NCBI RefSeq assembly: GCF_022763305.1 | Contig: NZ_JALEGT010000017.1 | Location: forward strand, 62,001 to 126,000 | Source of the DNA: Marivita sp. | GTDB lineage: Bacteria; Pseudomonadota; Alphaproteobacteria; Rhodobacterales; Rhodobacteraceae | Direction: 5' to 3' | DNA length: 64,000 bases | Shown here: in pieces, positions 55,119 to 58,087 of the stretch | How the letters are laid out: the number at the start of each line of letters is the position of its first letter | How positions within the stretch are numbered: position 1 is the first letter of the stretch | Notes under the pieces: generated by a model | Told to the model about the DNA's origin: nothing | Database searches by the model: none | What the model saw: the letters and a program-made list of their open reading frames with translations, nothing else | Translations under genes and position numbers: made by a program

Positions 55119-56285
55119 ATGACCGTGATTACCGAAATCGAAGACCTGCGCCGCATCTACAAACGGCGCGTGCCCAAGATGTTCTTCGACTACACGGAAT
55201 CGGGCAGCTGGTCCGAACAGACCTTCCGCGAGAACTCTTCGGATTTCGACAGGATCTACCTACGCCAGCGCGTCGCCATCGACATGGAGGGACGCAAGAC
55301 CGCGTCGAAGATGATCGGGCAGGACGTGGCGATGCCGGTGGCTCTGGCCCCGGTGGGGTTGACCGGCATGCAGCATTTCGACGGCGAGATCAAAGCGGCC
55401 AAGGCGGCAGAGAAATTCGGCGTGCCCTACTGCCTCAGCACCATGTCGATCTGTTCGATCGAGGACGTGGCCGCGGACACGTCCAAGCCGTTCTGGATGC
55501 AGGTCTACACGCTCAAGGACGATGATTTCATGCAGCGGCTGTTCGACCGTGCCAAGGACGCCAAATGTTCGGCGGCGATCATCACCGTCGATCTGCAACT
55601 GCTGGGACAGCGCCACAAGGACCTCAAGAACGGTCTGAGCGCCCCGCCCAAGCTGACCCCGGCTTCGGTCGCCAACATGATGACCAAGGTTCAATGGGGC
55701 ATCGGCATGCTCTCCACCAAGCGCCGGTTCTTCGGCAATATCGTGGGGCACGCGAAGGGCGTGAAGGACCCGTCCTCGCTGTCGTCCTGGACGGCGCAGG
55801 CGTTCGACCAGTCGCTGAACTGGGACCGCATCCGCGAGTTTCGCAAGATGTGGGACGGCCCGCTCATCATCAAGGGGATCATGGACCCGCGCGATGCGCT
55901 GGAGGCGCTGAACGTGGGTGCGGATGCGATCATCGTGTCGAACCATGGGGGACGGCAACTGGACGGCGCGCTCTCGTCGATCCGGGCGCTTGCGCCGATC
56001 CTCGATGCGGTGGGCGACAAGATCGAGGTGCATCTCGACAGCGGTATCCGCTCCGGTCAGGACGTTCTCAAGGCGCTCGCGATGGGGGCCAAGGGCACCT
56101 ATATCGGCCGCGCCTATGTCTATGGGCTGGGGGCCAAGGGCCAGCAGGGTGTGACCGACGCGCTGAACGTGATCCACAAGGAGCTCGAGGTGTCGATGGG
56201 CCTTTGCGGGCGCACGGACGTCAATGCGCTCGACCGCGACATCCTGATGATCCCCAAGGGATTTTCGGGCGACTGGGAAGAGTGA
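55119..56285 (+). CDS. lldD: FMN-dependent L-lactate dehydrogenase
   Basis: Alpha-hydroxyacid oxidase family enzyme of 388 aa, oxidising L-lactate to pyruvate with electrons passed to the respiratory chain. FMN-binding and catalytic segments are intact: MPVALAPVGLTGMQH, IIVSNHGGRQLDGALSS (catalytic His) and HLDSGIRSGQDVLKALAMGA. A GGAAAGG ribosome binding site precedes ATG 55119. Monocistronic. Downstream is the hairpin-rich region 56286-56757. Confidence 0.93.
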   Translation: MTVITEIEDLRRIYKRRVPKMFFDYTESGSWSEQTFRENSSDFDRIYLRQRVAIDMEGRKTASKMIGQDVAMPVALAPVGLTGMQHFDGEIKAAKAAEKFGVPYCLSTMSICSIEDVAADTSKPFWMQVYTLKDDDFMQRLFDRAKDAKCSAAIITVDLQLLGQRHKDLKNGLSAPPKLTPASVANMMTKVQWGIGMLSTKRRFFGNIVGHAKGVKDPSSLSSWTAQAFDQSLNWDRIREFRKMWDGPLIIKGIMDPRDALEALNVGADAIIVSNHGGRQLDGALSSIRALAPILDAVGDKIEVHLDSGIRSGQDVLKALAMGAKGTYIGRAYVYGLGAKGQQGVTDALNVIHKELEVSMGLCGRTDVNALDRDILMIPKGFSGDWEE

Positions 56286-56757
56286 AGGGTGCCGGGCTGA
56301 CGCCCGGCTGACGCGTGCGCTCCGGTCGGGATGTCCCCCCGCCGGATACATGTTGGTTAACCCGGGCCTTTGCCCGCCGTGTCGATCTGTCCGAGAAGAA
56401 GCGGCGCCGCCCCGTTGGGCCTGACAGCTCTCCCATCTGCCGGAGTTTCCCCCGGGACCTGTGCCCGTGTTACGGGCCTTCGTGAAACCGGTTTCTCATG
56501 GTCGCCCCGAAGTCGGGGATCAAGAGAGTGTCAGTTCTGTGGTGTCGCGGCCTGGGAGTGACCCTGCCCGCTCGATGCGCATCGTGGGCGGGGGTATGGC
56601 GCAGCATCGGTTAACGATCTGGAAACCGGGCGTGCGGTGGACGGTCTTTCGGAAGACCGGAACACACGGTTTGTAAACCGTGTCCTTAGAGCCTTGGAAG
56701 GCTCTGGAGCGGCATTTTCGAAAATGCCGCCAAGCCTGTTCGAACAGGCTTGGCGCC
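56286..56757. repeat. hairpin-rich convergent intergenic region with array of perfect palindromes
   Basis: This 472-bp gap between lldD (+) and the MFS gene (-) has no recognised gene but many dyads: 56363-56376, 56401-56410, 56463-56477 (GCCCGT/ACGGGC), 56484-56495 (GAAACCGGTTTC), 56505-56518 (CCCCGA/TCGGGG), 56573-56584 (CGATGCGCATCG), 56642-56659 (CGGTCTT/AAGACCG), 56664-56683 (ACACGGTTT/AAACCGTGT), 56688-56705 (AGAGCCTT/AAGGCTCT), 56709-56730 (22-bp palindrome centred on TTCGAA) and 56728-56755 (28-bp palindrome centred on TTCGAA). The last five are consecutive, differ in sequence, have loops of 0-4 nt, and stop 2 bp before the MFS stop codon. Confidence 0.75.
56291..56308 (+). terminator. 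hairpin after lldD
   Basis: GCCGGGC (56291-56297) pairs with GCCCGGC (56302-56308) over a TGAC loop, starting 6 bp after the lldD stop. No T-run follows, so this would be an intrinsic-like or Rho-assisted stop. Confidence 0.6.
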
Positions 56758-57915
56758 TCAGGCACGCCCCAGCGCCACCCGGTTCAGCACCGGCAACAGC
56801 ACCAATGTCACCGCAAATAGCAGCACTCCGATCACGAGGAACGAGGTCGACAGACCAAAGCCCTCGGACAGGAAGCCCATCATCGGCGGTCCGATGAAGA
56901 ATCCGGCATAGCCGACCACCGAAATGCGCGAGATCGCGTGGCTGCGGTAGCGGTTGGGCACCATGCGACCGATCCAGGCATAGGCCATGGGAGCCATGAC
57001 CGAGACCCCGAGCCCGAGAACGGAGAACCCGACATAGGCCACGAGGAGCGAAGGGGCCGTCGCCGCGATCCAGGCTCCGATCCCCGCTGTGACCGCTGCC
57101 CAACGAATCACCAGCTTTTCTGAAACTCGGTTCGCCACGACCTGCCCGGCAAGTCGGCCCACAGCCATGGTCAGTCCCAGCAAGGCCGGACCCAGCGCAC
57201 CCTGTGCAGCCCCGGCGCCAAGATTGCGTTCGAGATGCAGCGCCGACCAGCCTTCGGTCGCTTGTTCCGACATGAAGGCGATCAGGATGATCATGCCACC
57301 GGGCAAAAGCAGCGACCACGGCAGCGGTGCCACCTCGACACCTTCCGCCTCGTGATCGGCATCGGCGACAGGCGCGGCGAAAGCCTGCAGCATCAGCGCA
57401 CCGATCACCACGCCTCCCCCTGTGAGGATCGCTGCAGGACCGAACCCCGCCTCGCGCGCCAGACCGGTGGCCAGCGCACAGATCGCATAGGCGACCGAAA
57501 ACACGGCATGGTTGAGGTTCATAAGGCTGCGCCCCGCCTGCGCTTCGAGTGCGCTCACCCGCGCGTTCATTGCCACGTCGAGCGTGCCCGAGGTCATCGT
57601 GACACCCAGCATGGCCAGCGTGAACAGCACACCGGTCGTGGTGTGCCCCGGCAACAGCGTTGCCAGCCCGAGCAGCCCCGTCAACACGCCCAATGCGCGC
57701 GGCCCGAGCCCGCGTTCGGCCAGCGGCGCCAGCCACATCGCCATCACCGCCCCGATCGAGGTGATGAGCAGCGCCAGCCCGAACTGCCCGTCCGACAGAC
57801 CGACCTGCGGCTTGATCACCGGCACAAGGGCCGCGAAACTGCCCCAGAACACGCCAACGGCGGCGAATCCGGCGGCAGGGCCGCGACTGATATGGAGATC
57901 ACGCAAGAGGCTCAT
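56758..57915 (-). CDS. MFS transporter
   Basis: Major facilitator protein of 385 aa with 12 hydrophobic segments (GVFWGSFAALVPVIKPQVGL at the start; LLISTIG-like LALLITSIGAVMAMWLAPL; MAYAWIGRMVPNRYRSHA in the second half). ATG 57915 is used; a GTG at 57966 would add 17 residues. The layout resembles FucP/YbjJ-like carriers. Substrate unknown. It converges on lldD across the palindrome array. Confidence 0.88.
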   Translation of the reverse strand: MSLLRDLHISRGPAAGFAAVGVFWGSFAALVPVIKPQVGLSDGQFGLALLITSIGAVMAMWLAPLAERGLGPRALGVLTGLLGLATLLPGHTTTGVLFTLAMLGVTMTSGTLDVAMNARVSALEAQAGRSLMNLNHAVFSVAYAICALATGLAREAGFGPAAILTGGGVVIGALMLQAFAAPVADADHEAEGVEVAPLPWSLLLPGGMIILIAFMSEQATEGWSALHLERNLGAGAAQGALGPALLGLTMAVGRLAGQVVANRVSEKLVIRWAAVTAGIGAWIAATAPSLLVAYVGFSVLGLGVSVMAPMAYAWIGRMVPNRYRSHAISRISVVGYAGFFIGPPMMGFLSEGFGLSTSFLVIGVLLFAVTLVLLPVLNRVALGRA

Positions 57916-58087
57916 GGCGCAGTCCGTGCCACGGCGCGCCTCAACGGTCCAGTCCCGAAAACGCACGGCCTGCGACGAAATCAGCCACCTTCGCTCTTGC
58001 CCTGCGCGGAAAACCAGTCTATCGCGCGGGCTTCATGCGGGGTGACAGCCTTGGAGGCACCCTGCCCTTACAATTTGGAGATATATC

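Follow-up and report, generated by a model that had tools for sequence, protein, structure and literature searches.

Multicopy families of homologous small RNAs, such as the cuckoo CCUCCUCCC RNAs of Rhodobacter, Qrr of Vibrio and LhrC of Listeria, and dispersed palindromic DNA at gene ends, such as the intergenic repeats of the REP/BIME and ERIC/BOX type, are the described systems closest to the locus analyzed here. The locus is situated in a window of 64,000 nucleotides from a Marivita genome, in which a first-pass annotation had noticed at least nine dyads crowded into 56463-56755 between convergent lldD-like and MFS genes. All nine dyads were found again at their places, and the two neighbouring genes were confirmed by matches to PF01070 (+) and PF07690 (-) on either side (Table 1). 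However, the segment, which had been taken for one array of unlike palindromes, is composed of two separate modules, as the five right-hand dyads at 56642-56755 are separable from a covarying core at 56392-56643. This unit reaches further to the left than had been drawn, and its promoter-like block and strand had been overlooked. We consider it likely that 56392-56643 represents one copy of an undescribed multicopy family of structured noncoding RNA genes, located on the minus strand and known so far in the genus Marivita only. The reading is based on repetition with fixed ends, covariation, a strand bias of wobble pairs, a promoter-like block present in both subfamilies, and the T-run terminator of the type II subfamily.

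Table 1: Positions (in the window) of the features described in the text.
Feature	Position	Strand	Remarks
lldD-like FMN-dependent dehydrogenase	55119..56285	+	PF01070; conserved neighbour at locus A
Conserved element of ~250 bp, type I copy, predicted ncRNA gene	56392..56643	-	promoter-like block, structured RNA and terminator-like end
Terminator-like end, weak tract in type I	56393..56410	-	GCGGCGCCGC then TTCTTCTC
Branched domain	56421..56534	-	P1 closes P2-P5; covariation on alignment A2 and on the joint type I and II alignment A4
P1	56421-56434 with 56522-56534	-	
P2	56441-56454	-	
P3	56463-56477	-	dyad, re-read of sequence
P4	56484-56495	-	dyad, re-read of sequence
P5	56504-56518	-	dyad, re-read of sequence
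P6, hairpin, nearly invariant	56547..56571	-	99.7-100% of cells paired, almost no variation
P7, palindromic hairpin near the predicted RNA 5′ end	56573..56584	-	CGATGCGCATCG in the window copy; dyad, re-read of sequence
Promoter-like block, unstructured	56592..56640	-	CCGCACGC-N5-TTTCC-N6-TTAAC-N11-CATACC in the window copy; presumed start site
Array of five hairpins	56642..56755	.	~22-nt spacing, last two perfect and TTCGAA-centred; similar element-free arrays between convergent genes
Array hairpin 1	56642-56659		dyad
Array hairpin 2	56664-56683		dyad; two 9-nt arms around GT
Array hairpin 3	56688-56705		dyad
Array hairpin 4	56709-56730		dyad; perfect 22 bp, TTCGAA centre
Array hairpin 5	56728-56755		dyad; perfect 28 bp, TTCGAA centre
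MFS transporter	56758..57966	-	PF07690; convergent, conserved neighbour at locus A

Searching the genome of the window with 56440-56780 yielded eight main places and, in addition, shorter palindrome matches. The copies aligned end to end over ~250 nt, corresponding to 56392-56643 (nhmmer). Among 61 genomes searched (own, same genus, family and class), 16 contained a match, all of them in the own genus. An exact 26-letter pattern was present in 82 stretches, and among the matches listed (80) the names were those of Marivita or of Alphaproteobacteria/Rhodobacteraceae MAGs. From 118 loci and the window, 91 copies of distinct sequence were obtained, 77 of which entered alignment A2, leaving out seven with an insert and seven cut by locus or contig ends. 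Covariance models were built of the right-hand domain (R1) and of the other domain (R2). In the own genome R1 detected eight copies at 80-107 bits and none weaker at E 0.001, and in 17 Marivita genomes it yielded 131 matches, 125 at 50 bits or more and, after a gap, six at 26-29 bits. The strong matches amounted to 5-10 per genome in 15 of these genomes; G008 has no copy and G011 one good copy, indicating that the family is dispensable in the genus. In G011 the element is missing between the lldD-like and MFS genes, and the gap is diverged. The earlier proposal of a dispersed palindromic element fits, as the element is present eight times in the own genome and recurs as one unit in the genus, whereas a coincidental cluster, for which neither copies elsewhere nor compensatory changes would be expected, is not in agreement with the finding of both. 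Seven type I copies (L044, L055, L072, L073, L077, L084 and L100) contain an extra module of ~100 nt, which separates the branched domain from P6 at about position 136 of the model.

Outside the genus, R1 found only two weak matches in the 294 other genera among 295 genomes (one per genus of the family), in G120 with 30.9 bits and in G296 with 26.5 bits, and R2 found the own genome only, both scans having been run with stricter filters, by which some weak matches are lost. Wider conservation was considered and set aside: L126 looks like chance by eye, L127 keeps promoter-like letters, and neither genome is matched by R2. Since this holds for both G120 and G296, we make no claim beyond the genus. 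The match in G296 (L127:1317-1418), a member of another genus, may be a distant relative or a product of chance. Phage and plasmid records gave no blastn match at 1e-3, IMG/VR contained no exact match to one pattern of the element, and the literature searched on Marivita repeats, intergenic elements and small RNAs did not describe it.

The six weak R1 matches within the genus comprise four that clearly belong to a second subfamily (type II), another of the same kind (L159) and a decayed type I copy (L154). Type II has the promoter block and the branched core of type I, together with a different second hairpin and a strong terminator-like end. In 22 of 25 copies, four or more T come directly after its terminal palindrome; the exceptions are two copies with CTTAAAC, one of them that of the own genome, and one without the end. 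The palindrome is mostly AGGTGACGTCACCT, and two of the copies that keep the T run have GGATGGCGCCATCC in its place. TTAAC was found upstream in 22/25 type II copies. The own genome contains one type II copy, elsewhere than its eight type I copies. A joint model of both types detected 8-12 places per genome in 15 genomes, two places in G011 and no place in G008; among the matches listed, five are the same place on the opposite strand.

Covariation was tested on 33 pairs in eight helices over the 77 copies, with P5 outside the helices counted. Overall, 94.2% of the cells were paired, compared to 39.8-50.6% when the partners were slid by 1-3 columns. Doubly changed cells numbered 222 versus 66.5 ± 6.5 after shuffling, a value as high being obtained in none of 500 shuffles, though the cells are not independent because copies at one locus are related. 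Further pair types showed no excess (32 versus 32.8 shuffled). The compensatory changes in the stems, which the first-pass annotation had advised looking for, were detected in six of the eight helices and in 19 of the 33 pairs, while the two P6 helices hardly vary. This invariance arises in part because the exact 26-letter search pattern falls within P6; in L160-L162, which were found through R1, P6 differs in sequence with most pairs kept. In P7, three of four pairs were changed on both sides and 100% of the cells paired, with the variants CAAAAGCTTTTG, CAAAGCGCTTTG, CGGTGCGCACCG and CGTTGAGCAACG occurring by locus in other copies; wobble intermediates were absent from the 77 copies, a pattern that also suits a palindrome at the DNA level. 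The joint alignment of types I and II (31 domains used, two of 33 candidate rows left out) was 95.3% paired, with 55 doubly changed cells versus 15.2 ± 3.1 shuffled. The element consequently possesses covarying secondary structure, one of the marks of an independent bacterial sRNA gene. Rfam 15 found a single tRNA, outside the element, in the whole 64-kb window at the gathering threshold, three weak matches far below gathering in 56300-56800 at E up to 10, none in eight related loci, and nine matches, all below gathering, in one type II copy at E up to 5. No Rfam RNA was found in L003, L062 or L098.

Three lines of evidence bear on the strand. With the helices defined on the plus letters, C.A or A.C cells, which are G.U on the minus strand, occurred 57 times versus 16 for G.T; counted as distinct pair-type-locus classes, this is 38 for minus versus 10 for plus. 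The fold z-score (25 shuffles) was lower on the minus than on the plus strand in 64 of 77 copies, with means of -1.6 and -0.75, respectively; for the window copy itself, the raw minimum energy is lower on the plus strand (-142.2 versus -124.2 kcal/mol on the minus strand). Because of the wobble bias, the fold bias against shuffles and the terminator ends, we predict that the RNA of the element is most likely the minus strand, and an RNA from the plus strand was set aside on the same evidence. Of the explanations offered previously, a folded noncoding RNA is therefore supported by strong compensatory change and by wobble for 56392-56643, on the minus strand.

On the minus strand, per-column conservation gave the consensus CCGnnCGC-N5-TTTCC-N6-TTAAC-N11-CATACC for the promoter-like block, which has a mean fold z of -0.08 and no standard -35 box. 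Of the 77 aligned type I copies, 70 contain GTTAA (plus letters) and 32 the whole promoter pattern. In the own genome, TTTCC-N5..8-TTAAC-N9..13-ATAC matched four times, each time inside an element copy (one match for the reversed control), so that four of the eight copies carry the pattern. CtrA-activated promoters of Rhodobacter sphaeroides, as described in PMC6180460, consist of TTAA-N7-TTAA, with the activating sites located near -35 and an A at -11 that is invariant. Compared with the promoters described there, the block appears similar in a TTAA half near -35, an invariant A at the presumed -11 and ~7 nt between the halves. In the element consensus, TTTC-N7-TTAAC, the second half is conserved and the first deviates; since it is TTTC and not TTAA, the likeness to a CtrA-type promoter can serve only as a lead. 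At the other end of type I, the 8 nt following the GCGGCGCCGC palindrome are 59% T and 34% C (77 copies; the T fraction by position was computed over 84 copies). If the element is an RNA gene, an activator-type promoter at about 56640-56592 on the minus strand would give rise to an RNA of about 195-200 nt reaching from the block to 56392. The transcript presumed to start at this block would begin with the 5′ hairpin P7, continue with P6 and its conserved loop and with the branched domain closed by P1, and end at the GC-rich palindrome and the pyrimidine-rich tract. Such an RNA might act in trans by binding a protein or mRNAs, and its many copies might provide dosage or be maintained separately as paralogues.

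In the right-hand module, perfect palindromes of 20, 22 and 28 bp had been reported; those of 22 and 28 bp are indeed perfect, centred on TTCGAA and overlap by three common bases (56728-56730), but the 20-bp one is interrupted by its GT centre. As also stated before, reading the sequence revealed no T run after any of the nine dyads. Perfect palindromes with arms of at least 10 occur twice in the 64-kb window, both in the array, versus 0.1 expected (20 Markov-1 simulations), and on either strand the region is more stably folded than its shuffled versions (z of -4.0 for plus and -4.7 for minus). In 680 kb we counted 89 perfect palindromes with arms of at least 8, including 66 centred on TTCGAA; 70 of the 89 are located within 350 bp of an element, a proportion that is biased because the loci were picked for carrying it. 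The palindrome types keep one order at several loci. Similar arrays exist without the element: 20 places, mostly palindrome-only matches, were fetched, three of which turned out to be element loci. The remaining 17 TTCGAA-centred arrays (L135-L150 and L152), which stand in short gaps, comprise 13 between convergent genes, two between co-directional genes and two at contig ends. The first hairpin begins 3-9 nt past the stop codon in 11 of the 13 convergent gaps. The sequence GCATTTTCGAAAATGC was found in 13 of 17 Marivita genomes and in none of 44 others. Because of this placement just after stops and mostly in convergent gaps, and judging by placement only, the hairpins at 56642-56755 are probably terminators acting in both directions, on the MFS gene and on transcription that arrives from the left; the earlier suggestion of a bidirectional termination zone fits these right-hand hairpins. 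In this role, the array would stop transcription of the MFS gene and protect the promoter of the RNA against read-through. It resembles known bidirectional intrinsic terminators in that the TTCGAA hairpins stand just past stops in short convergent gaps, and differs from them in the lack of a U tract and in its perfect palindromes with a common TTCGAA centre, arranged in ordered sets ~22 nt apart. A second palindrome family, ATCCTCGGG-N5-CCCGAGGAT, was observed in the 5′ flanks of copies such as L037, L040 and L081, between the left neighbour and the element.

According to our own simple gene caller, 87 of the 91 distinct copies have at most 60 bp in common with any called gene, and 42 of the 68 copies with genes on both sides lie between convergent genes (an earlier gene calling had given 36/70; the count of the better caller is used). 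Seven loci are common to different species: lldD-like/MFS, Fe-S protein/endonuclease-phosphatase, DctP/cytochrome peroxidase, CAF17-like/EF-P, DM13/CoA-transferase, glnE/ketoacyl synthase, and isocitrate dehydrogenase. For the gene beyond locus C, the called strand is supported by Pfam CCP_MauG. At the isocitrate dehydrogenase locus (L051, L072, L091, L095, L110 and L003), no gene was seen on the RNA 3′ side before the end of the stretch; as several of the contigs stop at this point, a long repeat may be present. Among the 74 of 77 aligned rows with a locus label, the nearest neighbour was at the same locus in 36 (9.1 expected), which argues for copies inherited in place, and in the same genome in 21 (4.1 expected), so that gene conversion or re-copying also appears to keep copies alike.

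The similarity of copies both within a genome and within a locus, together with dispersed copies in all genus genomes searched but one and some copies at loci not common to others in the set, would also be compatible with a mobile element that is non-autonomous (MITE-like or domesticated) and is helped by its structure to spread. We regard such an origin of the core as very unlikely: 124 of the 125 strong R1 matches cover the whole model, the remaining one lying at a contig end, with no tail of fragments, and most copies with identified neighbours occupy the seven recurring loci. Moreover, a MITE defined by terminal inverted repeats was rejected, as no inverted pair joins both ends in the three copies tested (window, L003 and L008), and so was a REP element with RAYT, as PF01797 exceeded the cut-off in four of the 17 Marivita genomes, the own genome not being among them.

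A comparison of the two sides within element loci revealed a clear asymmetry. On the promoter and palindrome side, a called gene stands between the element and the conserved neighbour in 23 of 71 copies, whereas on the RNA 3′ side the conserved neighbour is directly next to the element in 62 of 63 and separated by a gene in one; insertion events are fewer than these counts because related species share some inserted genes. Those that could be named encode MATE, GNAT, sulfotransferase, glycosyltransferase, GmrSD_N, AIPR and Fe-ADH proteins. At the DctP locus, the inserts L045:1076-2140 and L073:4737-6440 resemble GmrSD_N/NsnA and AIPR/AbiU phage-defence proteins. The asymmetry bears on the idea that the core is a structured 3′-UTR element of the flanking genes, involved in mRNA stability or termination, rather than an independent RNA gene. 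Although the copies stand at gene ends, often between convergent genes, and TTCGAA hairpins are close to stop codons, we consider this improbable, as the wobble bias denotes the minus strand, yet the extra genes part the minus-strand upstream gene from the core. Furthermore, the hairpins stand between that gene and the core, at the glnE locus there is no plus-strand gene reading into the core, and the promoter-like block is conserved in both subfamilies.

At the B locus, comparison of L083 with L107 showed that an insert of ~0.9 kb, flanked by the 14-bp repeat CTGCCCCGCATTTT, interrupts the palindrome CCCCGCATTTT/CGAAAATGCGG in the middle. Such an insert, the extra genes on the palindrome side, and perfect palindromes with changing arms around a common TTCGAA centre could indicate that palindromes and core are sites acting as DNA, either protein-binding or chromosome-organising palindromes or an attC-like site of gene capture. 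We give this explanation hardly any weight, for the strand-biased wobble of the core is not predicted by DNA cruciforms. Prompted by the extra genes, an integron attC/cassette system was also considered and rejected, since TIGR02249 was over the cut-off in none of the 17 Marivita genomes, and matches below it occurred alike in 17/17 of these and in 14/14 controls. In a more speculative and, in our opinion, rather unlikely scenario, the family would be a bacterial counterpart of SINEs, a complete transcription unit of a small RNA, with promoter, structured RNA and terminator, multiplied to ~10 copies per genome in one genus, the copies exchanging sequence, and the flanking palindromes would be a hot spot capturing single accessory genes, including candidate phage-defence genes, without an integron integrase.

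Provided that the predicted RNA is made, the element represents a new family of structured RNAs from marine bacteria that can be cultured, in which one could study the reason for maintaining many diverged copies of a single RNA in a genus, and whether genes for RNAs can multiply in the manner of mobile elements. It comes with a built-in comparative set of ~10 paralogues per genome, 16 carrier genomes, one genome without it and a conserved block of presumed activator type. In addition, the one-sided extra genes offer a testable case of palindromes as gene-capture sites. Like the cuckoo, Qrr and LhrC families, the element would comprise several homologous small RNA genes per genome, each supposedly with its own promoter and terminator, but it matched no Rfam family, and its fold is larger and branched. 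Membership of the cuckoo RNAs, which are marked by a CCUCCUCCC motif, was rejected, as CCTCCTCCC is absent from both strands in all 77 aligned copies. Like the REP/BIME and ERIC/BOX repeats, it is palindromic DNA found dispersed at the ends of genes, in many cases where two genes converge; apart from the absence of RAYT from the own genome, it differs from them in that its core carries a one-sided promoter-like block, strand-biased wobble pairs and a terminator-like end.
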